A stretch of 64,000 bases of DNA, taken from assembly GCA_011525845.1 (NCBI GenBank), contig WYBP01000014.1, positions 124,001-188,000 on the forward strand. Direction: 5' to 3'. The stretch comes from Gemmatimonadaceae bacterium. GTDB lineage: Bacteria > Gemmatimonadota > Gemmatimonadetes > Gemmatimonadales > Gemmatimonadaceae. The position numbers and the translations under genes were made by a program. The notes beneath the pieces are model-generated. The model had not been told where the DNA came from. It saw only the letters and a program-made list of their open reading frames with translations, and made no database searches. Shown one piece after another: positions 5,839 through 27,267 of this stretch (position 1 is its first letter; every line of letters starts with the position of its first letter).

Positions 5839-6623
5839 CGGATGACGTGCCCGATCCGTGACCAGCGGATGTCCGTGAGGAACGGGAGCGGCCGGTCGGA
5901 GTCGTCCCGGTTGTACGAGTAGTACACGAAGAGTGGGCGTCCGCGGACGTTCGCGCGAGGGACGAAGCTCCAGTACCGGCTGTCCTTCGAGTTGTACCGG
6001 TTGTCCCCCATCATCCAGTAGTGCCCCTCCGGCACGACGAGCGGGCCCCAGTCGTCGACGGTGGGCTGCGCGGGCGCGGGGCCGAAGCGCGACTCCGTCA
6101 GCTGCACGCGCTTCTGCCAGTCGAAGAGGGGGTCCACGTAGTCCGGGTGCGCGCCCGGGAAGGCGGCGCCGTACCCCTGCAGCTGGGGTTCGCCGTTGAT
6201 GTGCACCACTCCCGCGCGCGAGTGGATCGTGTCCCCCGGCATCCCGATGAGCCGCTTCACGAGGATCGGCGTCGGGTCGTGCGGCTGGTCGATCTGCAGC
6301 GGCGAGATGAAGACCACGATCTCGCCGCGCTGCGGTTCCGCGTACCCCGGGAGATTGACGTCGGTGAACGGCACGTGCGGGCCGTAGCGCAGCTTGTTCA
6401 CGAAGAGCCAGTCGCCGATCAGCATCGACGGGATCATCGAGCCGGAGGGGATCCGGTAGGCCTCGATGAAGAAGGTGCGGAGGAGGAGGAAGATCGCGAT
6501 GGTGCCCGCGAGCGACTTAAGGCCCTCCCAGAAGCGCTTCGCGTCGAAGGGCTTCCCGCCCTTGCGGCCGCGCGCGGCGGCCACGGTGTTCTTCGGCTTG
6601 TCGGACTTCTTGCTGGCGGCCAC
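5835..6623 (-). CDS. lepB: Signal peptidase I
   Basis: Removes Sec signal peptides at the periplasmic face of the inner membrane. No ATG is in frame near the family start, so a GTG at 6623 is chosen (262 residues). A basic N-terminus is followed by one transmembrane helix at about residues 37-53. Box B, PSGSMIPSM, holds the catalytic Ser62. Box D, VKRLIGMPGD, holds the general base Lys123. Box E is MMGDNRYNSKDSR. The gene is followed by the RidA-like lipoprotein with a 4-base overlap. Confidence 0.93.
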   Translation of the reverse strand: MAASKKSDKPKNTVAAARGRKGGKPFDAKRFWEGLKSLAGTIAIFLLLRTFFIEAYRIPSGSMIPSMLIGDWLFVNKLRYGPHVPFTDVNLPGYAEPQRGEIVVFISPLQIDQPHDPTPILVKRLIGMPGDTIHSRAGVVHINGEPQLQGYGAAFPGAHPDYVDPLFDWQKRVQLTESRFGPAPAQPTVDDWGPLVVPEGHYWMMGDNRYNSKDSRYWSFVPRANVRGRPLFVYYSYNRDDSDRPLPFLTDIRWSRIGHVIR

Positions 6624-19722: not shown

Positions 19723-22700
19723 CTACCGCCGCTTCGGGATCGCGAACTCCTCCGTCTTGGGCCGCTCCGGGAACTTGAACCACCCGGAGACGTGCACGCG
19801 CCACTCGTCCATGATCTCGTAGACGGTCGGGATCACGAGGAGCGTGAGGAGCGTGGAGGTGATGGTGCCGCCGATGATCGCGCGCCCCAGCGGGGCACGG
19901 AAGTCCGCCCCTTCGCCGATGCCGAGCGCCACCGGGATCATGCCCGCGATGAGCGCCATCGTCGTCATCAGGATGGGGCGCAACCGCACGCGCCCCGCCT
20001 CGATGATCGCGGCCCGGCGTTCCATCCCCTGCTCCTGCCCCCACTTCGCGAAGTCGATCAGCAGGATCGCGTTCTTCGCCACGATCCCCATCAGCAGGAT
20101 CACGCCGATCATCGACATGATGTTCAGCGTGTCCCCCGTGATGAGCAGCGCGAGCACCACGCCGATCAGCGAGAGGGGGAGCGAGATCAGGATCGCGATC
20201 GGCTCCAGGAACGAGCCGAACTGCATCACGAGGATCAGGTACATCAGGAGCAGCGCGATGCCGAGCGCGGCGAAGATGTCGCCGAACACCTGCGCCTGGT
20301 CGCGCGCCTCGCCGCCGAGCGACCAGCGCACGCCGTCCGGGAGCGGGGTGCGGACGAGCGCGGCCTGGATGTCCGTGGTGACCTCGCCGAGCGAACGTCC
20401 CGAGAGGTTGGCCTGCACCACGATCACGTTGTCGCGATCGAGGTGGCTGATCTTCGCGGGACCGACCCCCTGCGACACGGTGGCGAGCTGTCCGAGCGGC
20501 ATCATGGTCATGCGGCCCCCCTGGCCCGCGACCGCGATCGGGAGCCGTTCGATGTCCGCCACCCGCGTGCGCGACTCGGGGGCGAGGCGCACGCGGACCT
20601 TCCGGTTCTCACCCGCGGGATCGACCCAGTCCCCCGCGTCCACGCCGGCGAAGGCGGGGCGCAGCGACTGCGCGAGCTGCCCGACCGTGACGCCGAGCGT
20701 GCCGGCCAGCGAACGGTTGAGCGCGATCTCGAGCTCGGGCTTCTGCCCCTTGGTGGAGAGCCCCACGTCCACGGCGCCCGGGACGGCGCGCACGAGCTGC
20801 AGGACCGAGTCCGCGGCCTGCTGGAGCACCTGCGTGTCGTTGCCGCGCAGCTCGAGCTGCACCTGCTTTATGGCGCCGCCGAACCCGGAGGTGAAGACGG
20901 CGACGGTCGCCCCGCCGATCCGCTTCACGTCCTCGCGCAGCACCGCGCCGAACTCGTCCTGCGAGAGCGTGCGCTCCGCCTTCGGGATGAGGCGCACGTA
21001 CACGGACGCGAGGTCCACCGCCCCGAGCGCCTCGGAGGGGTCCTGCCCGCCGCCCGCGCCGATGGTGGTGAAGGTGTATCGCACCTGCGGGTGCTCGCGC
21101 GCGATCCGCGCGGCCTCCTCCGCCTTGAGGCGCGTGTACTCGAGGTTCGACCCCGGCGGCGTCTCCACCTGGATCGTGATCTCCGAGCGGTCGGAGACGG
21201 GCACGAACCCGAACCCCCCGAACGTGGCCTGCACCCAGAGCGCACCGACGAGGCTCCCGCCGGCGAGCAGGACCATGGCCAGCCGGTGGTCGAGCGCCCA
21301 GCCGATCAGGCGCGTGTAGTCCCCCGAGCGGCGGTCGAACCACTGGTTGAACTTCTCCAGCTTGCGCGAGATCCAGCTGCGGTGCTGCCCCTCCTCGATC
21401 TCCGGGTCGGGCCAGTACGCCGAGAGCATCGGGTCGAGCGAGAAGGAGACGAAGAGCGAGACGAGCACCGCCATCGCGATCGTGAGTGCGAAGGGCTTGA
21501 ACCACTGCCCCGAGATGCCGTACATGAACGCGATCGGCACGAAGACGGCGACGATCGAGAGCGTCGTCGCGGTGACCGCGAGCCCGATCTCGTCCGTGCC
21601 CTCGTGCGACGCCTTGAAGTGGTCCTTCCCCATCTCGATGTGCCGCACGATGTTCTCGCGCACCACGATCGCGTCGTCGATCAGGATGCCGATCGCGAGC
21701 GAGAGGCCGAGCAGGGACATCGTGTTGAGCGTGAAGCCGAACGCCCAGACGGCGATGAAGCTGGCGAGCACGGAGATCGGGAGCGCGAGCCCCGTGATCA
21801 CCGTGGACCGCCAGGAGTTCAGGAAGAGGAAGACCACCAGCACGGTGAGGAGCGCGCCCTCGAAGAGCGTCCGCTGCACGTTCGCCACCGAGTTGCGGAC
21901 CCGCTCCCCCGCATCCTGGATCACGTCGATCGTCGTGCCGACGGGGAGCGTGGCGCGCACCTCGTCCACCTCGCGGAGCACCGCCTCGCTCACCTGCGTG
22001 GTGGAGTACCCCTTGGACTTCTTGACCATGATCCCGACCGCGTCGCGGCCGTTGTAGATCGCCGCGGTGCGCGCCTCGGCCGTGCCGTCGCGGGCCGTCG
22101 CCACCTCGCCCAGGCGGATGGCCCGCCCGCCGCGCTCGGCCACCACGAGGCGCAGGAAGTCCTCCGGCGTCTCGAGCTTGCCCTTGAGGCGTATCGCGCG
22201 CTCGTCCAGCGAGCCGTTGAGGCGCCCCACCGGCACCGCGAGGTTCTGCGACTGCAGCGCGCCCACCACCTGCGCCACCGTGATCCCCGCCGCCTCCATC
22301 GCGGCCGGGCGGATCTCCACCGTGAGCTCGCGCTCCACGCCGCCCACCACGATCGCCTCGGCCACGCCGGGGATGCCGCGCAGCGCGCGCGTCACGCCCG
22401 GGTCGGCGATGCGCGTGAGCGCCGGCGCGTCGAGCGTGCTCGAGTTGAGCGAGAGCTGCACGATCGGCTGGTCGGCCGGGTCGAAGCGCGTGAGCACCGG
22501 CTCCTTCATCTCCACCGGGAGGTCGGAGCGGATGGAGCTGATCTTGTCGCGGATGTCCTGCGACGCCTGCTGGAGGTCCTTCTCGAACACGAAGAAGACC
22601 GTGACGTTCGCGAAGCCGTCCTGCGCGGACCCCGAGATGCGGTCCACGCCGGAGATGCCGGCGACGGCCTCCTCCACGCGGTCGAGCACCTCGCGCTCCA

Positions 22701-22875
22701 CCACGTCGGGTGATGCGCCGGGGTACGGGATGGCGACGTTGATGATCGGCTGCTGCACGTCGGGGAACTCATCCGTCTCGAGCTGCCAGAGCGCGAAGAG
22801 CCCGAAGACCACCAGAGTCACCATCGAGACGACGGTGATCAGTGGCTTCTTGATGGCGAAATCGGAGATGAACAC
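19723..22875 (-). CDS. RND family efflux pump, inner-membrane permease (HAE-1 type)
   Basis: A 1050-residue proton-driven efflux permease. It has twelve expected transmembrane helices, with two large periplasmic loops after the first and seventh. Family markers are the N-terminal FAIKKPLITVV, GIPGVAEA, and TM4 GLSLAIGILIDDAIVVREN with the paired Asp residues needed for proton coupling. The C-terminal half shows MSMIGVILLMGIVAKNAILLIDFA and GAIIGGTITSTLLTL-like segments. Substrates are probably hydrophobic drugs. It is the last gene of the tetR-tolC / adaptor / pump operon, 12 bases after the adaptor. Confidence 0.93.
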   Translation of the reverse strand: MFISDFAIKKPLITVVSMVTLVVFGLFALWQLETDEFPDVQQPIINVAIPYPGASPDVVEREVLDRVEEAVAGISGVDRISGSAQDGFANVTVFFVFEKDLQQASQDIRDKISSIRSDLPVEMKEPVLTRFDPADQPIVQLSLNSSTLDAPALTRIADPGVTRALRGIPGVAEAIVVGGVERELTVEIRPAAMEAAGITVAQVVGALQSQNLAVPVGRLNGSLDERAIRLKGKLETPEDFLRLVVAERGGRAIRLGEVATARDGTAEARTAAIYNGRDAVGIMVKKSKGYSTTQVSEAVLREVDEVRATLPVGTTIDVIQDAGERVRNSVANVQRTLFEGALLTVLVVFLFLNSWRSTVITGLALPISVLASFIAVWAFGFTLNTMSLLGLSLAIGILIDDAIVVRENIVRHIEMGKDHFKASHEGTDEIGLAVTATTLSIVAVFVPIAFMYGISGQWFKPFALTIAMAVLVSLFVSFSLDPMLSAYWPDPEIEEGQHRSWISRKLEKFNQWFDRRSGDYTRLIGWALDHRLAMVLLAGGSLVGALWVQATFGGFGFVPVSDRSEITIQVETPPGSNLEYTRLKAEEAARIAREHPQVRYTFTTIGAGGGQDPSEALGAVDLASVYVRLIPKAERTLSQDEFGAVLREDVKRIGGATVAVFTSGFGGAIKQVQLELRGNDTQVLQQAADSVLQLVRAVPGAVDVGLSTKGQKPELEIALNRSLAGTLGVTVGQLAQSLRPAFAGVDAGDWVDPAGENRKVRVRLAPESRTRVADIERLPIAVAGQGGRMTMMPLGQLATVSQGVGPAKISHLDRDNVIVVQANLSGRSLGEVTTDIQAALVRTPLPDGVRWSLGGEARDQAQVFGDIFAALGIALLLMYLILVMQFGSFLEPIAILISLPLSLIGVVLALLITGDTLNIMSMIGVILLMGIVAKNAILLIDFAKWGQEQGMERRAAIIEAGRVRLRPILMTTMALIAGMIPVALGIGEGADFRAPLGRAIIGGTITSTLLTLLVIPTVYEIMDEWRVHVSGWFKFPERPKTEEFAIPKRR

Positions 22876-22887
22876 GGCGGCGCTCCG

Positions 22888-24012
22888 CTAGTTGCGCGCC
22901 GGCTTGTCCGCCGGCGTGCTCACCTTGAGGGGAGTGTTGGGGGAGATGCCGAGCGCCGCGCCGACCAGCAGCGTGTCGCCGGCCATGACGCCGGAGAGGA
23001 GTTCCACGCGTTCCGTGGATTCGTCGCGCGCGCCGAGCGTGACCTCGACCTTCTCGGTGCGGCCATTCTTGAGGCGGAGCACGGTGGGCACCAGGCCGCG
23101 CACGTCCACCGCCGCCTGCGGCGCGGTCAGCGTCTCGCGCGAATCGCTGGCCACGCGCCCCTCGGCGAAGAGCCCGGCCACGAGCTGGTTCCCCGCGTTC
23201 GGGATCCGCACGAAGAGCCGCACCTGCCGCGTCTGCGGGTCGGCCGAGGGGTTCACGCTGGAGATGCGTCCCTGGAAGGTGCGCCCGGGATACCCCGTCA
23301 CCGTGAAGCGCACGGGCGAGCCGGTGCGCACCTCGGAGAGCTGCTCGGCCGGCACCGCCGCCTCGAGCCGCATCGTCGCCGGGTCGACCACGCTGAAGAG
23401 CGGCGACCCGGGGGTCACGATGTCACCGGCGCTGACCATCCGCTCGCTCACCACGCCCGCGTAGGGCGCGAGCACGTTGGTCGCGTCAAGCTGCTTCTGT
23501 GCGGCGGCGAGGCGCGCCTTCGCATCGTCCAGCATGGTGCGCGCCGTGAGGTCGCCGCGGCGTGCGTTCTCGAGGTCGCGGTCCGCGATGGCGCCCACCG
23601 CGATCAGCTTCTCCGAGCGCTCCAGCTCCCGCTTCGCGATCTCGGCCGCCGTCTGCGCCGCCGTGAGTCCCGAGCGCGCGGAGAGGTACGCGTCGTTGAT
23701 CGCGCGGTCGTCGATCTTGGCGAGGGAGGTGCCCTTCTCCACCCGCGCGCCCGGGTCATGGAAGACCTGCACCACGGCACCGGGCACTTCGGCGCGGATC
23801 TGCGCCGTGCGCTCGGCGACGAGCGTCCCCGAGAGGATCGGACCCGAGGAGAGCGTGGTGCGCTCGGCGATCGTCATCGCCTCCGGGCCCACCTGCACGG
23901 TCACCGGGGTGTCGGCCGCGGCGTCCGCCGCCTCCGTGCCGCCGCAGGCCGCCGCGACGAGGACGAGCGCGCCAGCGCCGACGATTGCGAATGCACGGGA
24001 CGAACGGGACAT
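22888..24012 (-). CDS. RND efflux periplasmic adaptor (membrane fusion lipoprotein)
   Basis: A 374-residue adaptor. The ATG at 24012 has a GAGGAAG ribosome binding site and gives a lipoprotein signal with AAACGG; an alternative ATG at 24051 lies right after the preceding stop. The order is a first barrel-sandwich (VVQVFHDPGARVEKGTSLAKID), an alpha-helical hairpin (residues about 105-165), and the second lipoyl half VLAPYAGVVSERMVSAGDIV. A beta-barrel and a membrane-proximal domain follow. It should link the RND pump to the TolC channel. The middle position in the operon is standard. Confidence 0.92.
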   Translation of the reverse strand: MSRSSRAFAIVGAGALVLVAAACGGTEAADAAADTPVTVQVGPEAMTIAERTTLSSGPILSGTLVAERTAQIRAEVPGAVVQVFHDPGARVEKGTSLAKIDDRAINDAYLSARSGLTAAQTAAEIAKRELERSEKLIAVGAIADRDLENARRGDLTARTMLDDAKARLAAAQKQLDATNVLAPYAGVVSERMVSAGDIVTPGSPLFSVVDPATMRLEAAVPAEQLSEVRTGSPVRFTVTGYPGRTFQGRISSVNPSADPQTRQVRLFVRIPNAGNQLVAGLFAEGRVASDSRETLTAPQAAVDVRGLVPTVLRLKNGRTEKVEVTLGARDESTERVELLSGVMAGDTLLVGAALGISPNTPLKVSTPADKPARN

Positions 24013-24053
24013 CGGGGACTTCCTCGAGTGGATGATGATGGCGTTGGTCATGG

Positions 24054-26042
24054 TCAGCGCCCTCCCGTCTGGGAGAGCGGGAGGTCCTTCAGGAGCGCGA
24101 GACGGAGCTTCGCCAGCTCCAGGTCGCGCGCCGCGTTCACGCGCTGCAGCCGCGCCTGCTCGAGCTGCACGCGCACCTCGGTGAGCTCGAGCTGCGTGGA
24201 GATCCCCTCGGCGAAGCGCACCTCGGCGATCCGGTATGCCTGCTCGGCCTGCGTGTCCGTGCCGACGGAGGCGAGGTACGCCGAGCGCGACTGCTCGAGC
24301 TCCGTGAGCGCGAGGTGCGCGTCCAGCTCCGCCTGCTCGCGCGTCTCCTGGAGCTGGTGCATCGCCTGCGAGAGGTTCGCCTCCGCCACCATCCGCTCGC
24401 CGGCGAGTCGGCCACCGGTGAAGAGCGGCACCGAGAGCCCGAGCGAGACCGTCCAGTTCGGGAAGTACAGGTCGAGCGCGCCGGGGAGGAAGGTGCCCTC
24501 GGCCGGGTAGGCGAAGCGCTGGTAGGTGGAGGTGAGCTGGAGCGACGGGAGTCGCGCGAGGCGTGCCGCGCGGAGCGCGCTCTGCTGCGCCATCACCTGC
24601 GCCTCGCCCTGTCGGACGGTCGCGCGCGAACCCACGCTGGTGTCCGGCGTCACGGTGCGCGCGTCGGCCAGGGTGAGCGGGCCGCCGAGCTCGGCGACCA
24701 CCGCGGAGTCGTCACGGATGGGCGTCGTGAGCGTGAGGGGCGCGTCGAGCGGGAGGTCGAGGAGCTGCTTGAGCCGCAGGTAGGCCATGGTGCGGGCGCC
24801 GCGCGCCTGGATCACGAGCGGACGCTGGTTGTCGCGCGTGACGCGGGCGCGGAGCAGGTCGAACTCCGAGAGGGAGCCCACCTCGCGGCCGAGCTGCGTG
24901 GCGGCGAGGGTGCGCTCGGTGAGCGCCAGGGACGAGTCGGCGATCGCGAGGCGCCGGTCCGCGGCGACCGCGTCGAAGTAGGCCTGGGCCGCGTCGAGCG
25001 CGGTCTGCGCGCGCGCCGAGACGAGGGCGATGTCGGCCGCCGTGCGCGCCGCGTCAGCGCCGGAGCGCGCCGCGCCGATCCGACCGGCCGTGTAGAGGTT
25101 CTGCGAGAAGGCCAGCGTGAAGATCGCCGTGGTGGGCGCGGCGAAGATCTTCGCGAGCGGCGAGTCCTCGAGGCCGCCGCCGCCGGAACTCGAGGTGTCG
25201 GGCGGACCCGCGAAGCGCTCGGAGATCTCCTGGAACTGGCTCTTGATGGCACGCTGGTAGGCCACCGTGCCGTTGAGCTGCGGGAAGAGCTGGCTCGTGG
25301 CCTGCCGCTGCTGGCCGCCGGCGCGCCGGACGCCCGACTGGGCGATCGCCACCGCCTCGCTCTTCTGCTCGGCGATGCGGAGCGCCTCCGCGAGCGAGAG
25401 GGTGCCGGCGGCGGGACCCGCGGACTGCTGCGCCGCAGCGGGGACGGGGAGGACGAGGAGCAGGAGGGCGAGGGTGGCCCCGAGGGCGCGCAGGAAGAGT
25501 CGCACGTACGTGGAGGGTGCTTGGTCGGCGGGAGGGAACATCTCGGGCATCATGTCGCGGCCCATCGCGTCGGCGAAGAGCGAACCCTTCAGCATCGCGG
25601 CGGCGGGCGCGGCGTCCTTCGCCGAGGGGATGAACCCGTGCTCGGCGAGTCGCTCCACGTACGAGCAGAGCGCACGGAACGATTCGACGGGATGGTCGGC
25701 GACCTCGAGCGCGCACTCGGGGCGCTCATTCATCTCGGCCATCGTCGCCCGGATCATCCCGCGGCACTCGAACATGAAGGTGTGGTCCTCGGCGGCCCAC
25801 TCGGTGAGCTCGGCCTCGGGGTCCTCGGGGACCTCGGGGAGTGACGCCGCCGGGCCGGCCGCGGATTGGGATCGCACGGCCTCGCCGATCAGCGCGGCCT
25901 TGGAGCCGAAGAGGCGGAAGAGGGTGACTTCGTTGACGCCCGCTTCATCGGCGATGCGGCGGGTGGTGGCGCCGCGGAAGCCGACGTCGGAGTAGACACG
26001 GGCGGCGGCTTCGATGAGGTGCTGCTTGGTCGGTTCTGACAC
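24054..26042 (-). CDS. In-frame fusion of a TetR family repressor to a TolC family outer-membrane channel
   Basis: One uninterrupted frame of 662 residues from a GTG at 26042. Residues 1-60 are a TetR DNA-binding domain (KQHLIEAAARVYSDVGFRG, then RRIADEAGVNEVTLFRLFG). Residues about 75-186 are a helical TetR ligand domain ending TYVRLFLRAL. This runs straight into a hydrophobic segment (residues 187-201) with a signal-peptidase-like site PAAAQQ. Residues 206-662 are a complete TolC/OEP protein with both repeats (TLSLAEALRIAEQ; WTVSLGLSVPLFTGGR). An internal GTG at 25505 would give a normal TolC signal peptide but has no Shine-Dalgarno. Either the precursor is cleaved, leaving a membrane-tethered repressor, or two products are made. 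Confidence 0.85.
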   Translation of the reverse strand: MSEPTKQHLIEAAARVYSDVGFRGATTRRIADEAGVNEVTLFRLFGSKAALIGEAVRSQSAAGPAASLPEVPEDPEAELTEWAAEDHTFMFECRGMIRATMAEMNERPECALEVADHPVESFRALCSYVERLAEHGFIPSAKDAAPAAAMLKGSLFADAMGRDMMPEMFPPADQAPSTYVRLFLRALGATLALLLLVLPVPAAAQQSAGPAAGTLSLAEALRIAEQKSEAVAIAQSGVRRAGGQQRQATSQLFPQLNGTVAYQRAIKSQFQEISERFAGPPDTSSSGGGGLEDSPLAKIFAAPTTAIFTLAFSQNLYTAGRIGAARSGADAARTAADIALVSARAQTALDAAQAYFDAVAADRRLAIADSSLALTERTLAATQLGREVGSLSEFDLLRARVTRDNQRPLVIQARGARTMAYLRLKQLLDLPLDAPLTLTTPIRDDSAVVAELGGPLTLADARTVTPDTSVGSRATVRQGEAQVMAQQSALRAARLARLPSLQLTSTYQRFAYPAEGTFLPGALDLYFPNWTVSLGLSVPLFTGGRLAGERMVAEANLSQAMHQLQETREQAELDAHLALTELEQSRSAYLASVGTDTQAEQAYRIAEVRFAEGISTQLELTEVRVQLEQARLQRVNAARDLELAKLRLALLKDLPLSQTGGR

Positions 26043-26054
26043 GAATCCAGTGAT

Positions 26055-26072
26055 TGCAAGTGAATACTTGCA
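26055..26072. promoter_or_regulatory. Palindromic operator 1 for the TetR-TolC gene
   Basis: TGCAAGT-GAAT-ACTTGCA is a perfect 7-4-7 palindrome, 13 bases upstream of the GTG at 26042. It has the size and symmetry of TetR family operators and shares its half-site core with the second palindrome. Autoregulation by the TetR domain is the natural reading. Confidence 0.65.
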
Positions 26073-26077
26073 GTGAA

Positions 26078-26093
26078 GCAAGCGAGTGCTTGC
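26078..26093. promoter_or_regulatory. Palindromic operator 2 for the TetR-TolC gene
   Basis: GCAAGC-GAGT-GCTTGC is a perfect 6-4-6 palindrome. Its centre is 22 bases from the centre of operator 1, about two helical turns, so two repressor dimers would sit on the same DNA face. The half-sites (GCAAGC against GCAAGT) differ in one base. Confidence 0.65.
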
Positions 26094-26272
26094 ATGGGGC
26101 GCAACCCCCACTTGGCAGGTAATGCGGAGCGAGCGCTCGACGTACGACACGACCGACGAAGATTCGGCGTTTCTTCGGGATTGTCAAGCGCGACGCGGTG
26201 AAGGAACCTCGACCGGGTCCCCGCGATTGGTGATCCGCGAACACGAACGACACCCGAGTCCAGAGATCAGAG

Positions 26273-26740
26273 ATGTCAAAGACCAAACCCGCCAATCCCG
26301 AGCTCGCCGCGAAGCTCTCCCCCATGGAGTACCAGGTCACCCAGTGCAGCGCGACCGAACCCCCGTTCAGCAACGCCTTCTGGGACCACCACGAGCCCGG
26401 CCTCTACGTCGACATCGTCTCCGGCGAGCCCCTCTTCAGCTCCATCGACAAGTTCGACTCCGGCACGGGATGGCCATCGTTCACGCGCCCCGTGCAGCCC
26501 GAGAACGTCACCGAGCACGCGGACAACTCCCTCTTCATGCGGCGCGTGGAAGTGCGCTCGGCCGAGGGCGACTCGCACCTCGGGCACCTGTTCAACGACG
26601 GTCCGGGCCCCACGGGGATGCGCTACTGCATCAACTCGGCGGCGCTCCGCTTCATCCCGGTGGACCGGCTCGCGGCCGAGGGCTATGAGAAGTTCGTGCC
26701 CCTCTTCGAGGCCGCGGCCAAGCGGGAGAAGTCCCGGTGA
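26273..26740 (+). CDS. msrB: Peptide-methionine (R)-S-oxide reductase
   Basis: Reduces methionine-R-sulfoxide in oxidised proteins. The 155-residue protein has the MsrB signatures [42 protein letters not shown] with the catalytic Cys119, and INSAALRF. The zinc-binding CxxC pairs found in many MsrB proteins are absent, as in the zinc-free subgroup. The stop overlaps the msrA start, so both stereoisomers are handled by one transcript. It is divergent from the TetR-TolC operon. Confidence 0.94.
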
Positions 26741-27267
26741 CCGAACTCGCGACGCTGGGGGGTGGGTGCTTCTGGTGCCTCGAGGCGGTGTACCTCGAGC
26801 TGCGCGGCGTGCGCGCCGTGAAGAGCGGGTACGCGGGCGGGCATGTCGCGAACCCCACCTATGAGGAGGTCTGCGGGAAGAAGACCGGCCACGCCGAGGT
26901 GGTGCAGGTGGAGTTCGACCCCGCGGAGATCTCGTTCGCGGAGCTGCTCGAGGTCTTCTTCACCATCCACGACCCCACGACGAAGGACCGGCAGGGGAAC
27001 GACGTCGGGCCGCAGTATCGCTCGGTGATCTTGGCGCACTCACCGGAGCAGGAGCGGATCGCGCGCGAGCAGCTCGCGGCGGCGCAGGCGCATTGGGACG
27101 CACCGATCGTCACGGAGATCGCGCCGCTGGAGAAGTTCTGGCCGGCGGAGCGGGTGCACGACAACTACTTCGCGCGGAACCCGCAGAACCCCTACTGCGC
27201 CGTGGTGGTCGCGCCCAAGGTCGCGAAGGCGCGCAAGCTCTTCCTCGACAAGCTCGCGCACCGCTGA
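26737..27267 (+). CDS. msrA: Peptide-methionine (S)-S-oxide reductase
   Basis: Reduces methionine-S-sulfoxide; partner of msrB. The 176-residue protein has the active-site motif GGCFWC with the nucleophile Cys11, [29 protein letters not shown] and the [19 protein letters not shown] block. The GTG start at 26737 overlaps the msrB stop. No C-terminal pair of resolving Cys typical of some MsrA is obvious; NPYCAVVV holds one Cys that could resolve. Confidence 0.95.

Follow-up and report, generated by a model that had tools for sequence, protein, structure and literature searches.

A TetR-family repressor and a TolC-type outer-membrane channel are encoded as one uninterrupted frame in a member of the Gemmatimonadaceae, a bacterial family found in soils and sediments. 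The fusion is real, conserved and recurrent, both of its halves are under selection, and the two meet in a segment with the features of an internal signal sequence. We probably have here, judging from sequence features, a polyprotein processed by signal peptidase, from which TolC would be released and the TetR autorepressor left with a membrane stub that either stays in place or is freed by RseP.

Fusion gene, operon and operators

The gene lies on the minus strand of the window (the whole 64,000-nucleotide stretch analysed) and is modular, its 662 codons passing from a complete TetR protein through a Sec-type signal sequence into a complete TolC-type channel (Table 1). The single frame from TetR to TolC put forward in the original prediction is confirmed, with Pfam recognizing both domains. 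TetR_N (PF00440) matches residues 9–54 (E 5.5e-13, 48.9 bits against a cutoff of 24) and many HTH residues are invariant in the aligned TetR parts; OEP/TolC (PF02321) matches two stretches, the two OEP repeats (E 7.7e-44), and TolC-type NCBIfam matches begin at residue 215. An AlphaFold model (mean pLDDT 77) has TetR helices to residue 186, a low-confidence segment at 191–211 and then a TolC-like fold; its ligand-binding and dimerisation region is all-helical and of the size typical of the class (~120–150 residues). Foldseek matches the TetR half to Ms6564, FrrA and MexL and the channel half to E. coli TolC, CusC, OprM and CmeC, and none of the 50 matches listed covers both. Translation starts at GTG in the window and at an ATG in the equivalent place in most same-genus relatives. 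No second close copy of the fusion's TetR or TolC was found in the window's genome.

Table 1. Positions of the fusion gene, its parts and associated features within the window.
Feature	Positions	Strand	Remarks
TetR–TolC fusion gene	24054..26042	-	662 aa; GTG start 26042, TGA stop 24056-24054; ORF and Pfam
TetR domain	25485..26042	-	residues 1-186; HTH 9-54; last helix 175-186
Internal signal sequence (predicted)	25431..25508	-	residues 179-204; TetR last helix as n-region, hydrophobic core, AAA/Q
Internal GTG (V180)	25503..25505	-	candidate TolC start; no Shine-Dalgarno
Mature TolC/OEP outer-membrane channel (predicted)	24057..25430	-	residues 205-662; Pfam OEP and Foldseek
RND periplasmic adaptor (membrane fusion protein, HlyD_D23)	22888..24051	-	starts 2 bp past the fusion stop codon
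RND inner-membrane pump (ACR_tran)	19723..22875	-	downstream of the adaptor, same strand
Operator 1 (predicted)	26055..26072	.	TGCAAGYnnnnRCTTGCA, exact match
Operator 2 (predicted)	26077..26094	.	operator 1 palindrome with a single outer mismatch; lies 22 bp upstream of operator 1
Second type I signal peptidase (Peptidase_S26)	5919-6521	-	G000:C9:129919-130521; same window, ~18 kb from the fusion

The fused TetR retains a predicted operator at its own promoter, as is characteristic of the TetR class. Searching for the Table 1 palindrome with at most two mismatches within 130 bp upstream, we found it at 23/23 fused and 63/64 split loci, compared with at most 0.3% of shuffled upstream regions and none of the coding controls. 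The exact core palindrome occurs at two sites only in the window's 3.58 Mb genome, G000 (26056–26071 and 26078–26093, 22 bp apart). The HTH is under strong constraint, with dN/dS of 0.055–0.154 over six within-genus pairs. Divergent from the fusion gene are two genes on the plus strand (26273–26740 and 26737–27267) whose translations we take to be the methionine sulfoxide reductases msrB and msrA; relatives of these adjoin the fusion at 15 of the genus's 16 loci, and no other fetched locus has them alongside. Because both operators fall between the fusion and this pair, TetR may also touch the msrB/msrA-like genes.

The junction as a predicted internal signal sequence

At the junction, the last TetR helix (Y179 followed by VRLFLRALG to residue 188; modelled helix 175–186) runs directly into a hydrophobic stretch at 189–201 and then AAA204/Q205, placing the predicted cut between nucleotides 25431 and 25430. 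The TetR carboxy terminus and the signal sequence had been proposed to share residues 178–205; they do overlap, but the shared part is shorter, roughly 179–188. The proposed AAAQ cleavage site is supported as a predicted signal-peptidase site, alanine at −1 and glutamine at +1 being conserved in 16/16 same-genus proteins. Whereas a TolC protein ordinarily has its cleavable Sec signal at the extreme amino terminus, the signal here is internal, behind a 178-residue cytoplasmic domain. Split TetR proteins have no counterpart of the fusion's hydrophobic core or cleavage site.

Hydropathy over 19-residue windows follows the same division. The mean maximum at the junction is 2.16 in the window's genus against 1.72 in its split sisters, 1.80 and 1.87 in the fused groups of genus g20 against 1.54 in split ones, and the maximum in the fused G018 locus is 1.66 against 1.41 when split. 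Fused junctions are therefore the more hydrophobic in 4/4 groups, which is what an internal signal targeted co-translationally should show, though the pattern is suggestive only. In the same six within-genus pairs, dN/dS is 0–0.21 for the junction helix, which is under purifying selection, and 0.16–0.79 for the hydrophobic core; a low helix value beside a higher core value is the usual signal-peptide pattern. The window's genome encodes RseP and two type I signal peptidases, one of them in the same window as the fusion (Table 1).

In the processing scheme that we favour, the TetR part would fold in the cytoplasm, its carboxy-terminal helix doubling as the positively charged n-region of the internal signal. 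This signal would send the remaining chain co-translationally into Sec, amino terminus in and TolC out, and signal peptidase I would cleave after AxA and before the glutamine. Freed TolC would travel to the outer membrane and join the adaptor and pump made from the same operon, while the TetR half would keep a short hydrophobic tail at the inner membrane and, anchored there or after RseP has clipped the tail, would bind the palindromes of its own promoter as an autorepressor. Against this scheme, a membrane-held TetR reaching DNA from the membrane would be unusual for the family, whose members are typically soluble dimers of the cytoplasm.

Conservation, origins and alternative explanations

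A first check suggested for the fusion was its presence in independent genomes, and we find it at 23 loci. In all 16 same-genus genomes with the locus (relatives 64–85% identical), TetR runs into TolC without a stop; 14 of these fusions are full length, and two drafts (L021 and L022) break later, inside the TolC part, possibly through assembly errors. The sole genus member without the locus is G002, whose genome is 71% complete. The other 7 fused loci lie outside the genus, and where records with this fusion are named, they are metagenome assemblies of Gemmatimonadota. A stop between the domains in every relative, which would have undone the prediction, is not what we see: interdomain stops occur only in other clades, where the two are ordinary neighbouring genes. 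No TetR–TolC fusion was seen outside the family, whether the search took in 288 genomes across the order or, with a strict cut-off, 395 across the phylum.

The orthologous TetR gene is present in 149/179 family genomes, and the 85 fetched loci that reach TolC comprise 23 fused and 62 split. In most other Gemmatimonadaceae the genes are adjacent yet separate: TetR extends some 8–35 residues beyond the conserved YVRxFLRALG helix before its stop, and TolC begins at that stop or within tens of bases of it, with its own start and an ordinary signal peptide. Several split loci (L084, L097, L099, L102, L132 and several g5 loci) keep both genes in a common frame interrupted by a single stop, and so stand one mutation away from fusion. 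Genome G018 has four related TetR loci (L115–L118), three of which reach TolC, with only one of these fused.

A tree built from TetR together with TolC requires four changes for the fused state, at least three of them forced by well supported branches; the fused groups are the window's genus (16), two groups within g20 (4 and 2) and the single G018 locus. With a tree of the nearer part, a single clade of all fusions is rejected (p-AU 1.13e-74) and one clade of the six g20 fusions is not (p-AU 0.08), and we therefore count three to four events. The fusion apparently arose this many times, although the tree by itself does not distinguish repeated gains from a gain with later losses. The junctions also differ in construction, the hydrophobic core following FLRALG directly in the window's genus, whereas a hydrophilic, basic linker is kept between helix and core in g20 and G018.

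Repeated loss of a stop between tightly packed genes, with signal peptidase keeping both halves working, would give the same anatomy and the same processing as the polyprotein, and differs only in denying the linkage any regulatory effect. Such a tolerated accident is the less probable account but keeps a real share of the likelihood: the TetR stop and TolC start nearly touch in split relatives, and in those that share a frame a single change suffices. It sits less easily with a fusion kept genus-wide down to 64% identity, with both halves and the operator conserved, though this conservation shows that both halves work and not that joining them is useful.

A second alternative is that two products are made, TolC arising mostly from an internal start (the GTG at 25505 or either ATG, at residue 166 or 169) and the fusion being minor or serving as TetR only. 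The GTG, proposed earlier as a site to test for initiation, is indeed in frame in the window and would yield a good signal peptide (MRLFLRALG...), and it is kept in 13/16 same-genus genomes. As a TolC start it is nevertheless rejected, since the codon is not conserved, being GTC in L013 and L015 and GTT in L019. The two ATGs are possible internal starts and are nearly always present among the loci examined, but they belong to a TetR motif, MPxMFPP, that is also found in split TetR proteins; codon conservation is uninformative for them because methionine has one codon only. No candidate start has a convincing Shine-Dalgarno sequence (the match never exceeds 5 bases), which is weak evidence as TetR's own start has no obvious one either. 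At the fused locus L077 there is no ATG, GTG or TTG across the 50 junction codons examined, a stretch that begins 14 codons ahead of the junction tyrosine and ends 35 beyond it. We consider separate production of TolC unlikely.

Two further explanations can be set aside as highly improbable. That most of the genomes are metagenome-assembled drafts would speak for a sequencing or assembly artefact, but such an artefact, like a decaying gene with a dead TetR, is ruled out by recurrence of the frame at 23 loci, some of them in assemblies of 1 to 7 contigs (G011, G005 and G015), by low dN/dS and by the conserved operator; a programmed frameshift ending TetR at the junction, with TolC restarted, found no support and is ruled out, there being no out-of-frame stop at a conserved distance downstream of the junction.

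With the GTG unconserved and lacking a Shine-Dalgarno sequence, the fusion is probably the only form in which TolC is made, and the predicted one-to-one synthesis of TetR and TolC is thus probable. For the processed polyprotein, the absence of a conserved separate TolC start would mean that each TolC produced brings one TetR, so that the operon would be self-limiting according to how many channels are made. A more speculative and on balance doubtful extension is that repression is coupled to export, each TolC passing Sec releasing or positioning one TetR, such that the operon would sense the channels actually exported; if so, jammed export or cleavage would change repression directly.

Related systems and significance

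We rate the fusion as a variant of TetR-controlled RND operons. TetR-regulated RND efflux operons, represented by AcrR–AcrAB, MexL–MexJK and the split TetR–TolC–adaptor operon of other Gemmatimonadaceae (for example, G099), likewise combine a TetR repressor and palindromic operators at its own promoter with an adjoining TolC and adaptor; what distinguishes the present case from all of these is that repressor and channel occupy one frame, joined through a signal sequence. Our literature search, which covered few subscription papers, returned no report of a TetR–TolC fusion or of a membrane-anchored TetR.

Its layout of an amino-terminal DNA-binding domain, a single span and a periplasmic carboxy-terminal part recalls ToxR and CadC. 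These are winged-helix activators whose span is not a signal-peptidase site and whose periplasmic part is a sensor, unlike the TetR domain and predicted cleavable span of the fusion. The fbcH gene of Bradyrhizobium japonicum encodes a cytochrome b/c1 polyprotein cut by signal peptidase at an internal signal, and so provides a case of one bacterial gene giving two proteins by internal-signal cleavage, as predicted here; it yields two respiratory subunits, however, and no regulator. RsiV consists of a cytoplasmic regulator and one membrane span and is cut first by signal peptidase and next by RasP (PMC9044953), and RseP is able to cut membrane-spanning signal peptides (PMC9360617). The fusion resembles RsiV in its cytoplasmic regulatory domain, its one span, the predicted signal-peptidase site just outside that span (at its outer end) and a possible second, intramembrane cut. 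RsiV differs in being an anti-sigma factor that is cleaved in response to lysozyme, whereas the exported part of the fusion is a whole outer-membrane channel and its cutting is expected to be constitutive.

The junction indicates that a regulator's final helix can do double duty as a signal-sequence n-region, and annotation trimmed to an internal start codon would conceal such fusions. Here a DNA-binding repressor and its operon's outer-membrane channel derive naturally from a single chain, an arrangement apparently reached several times independently; whether a bacterium can couple efflux-channel dosage to the repressor via signal-peptide processing thereby becomes testable.
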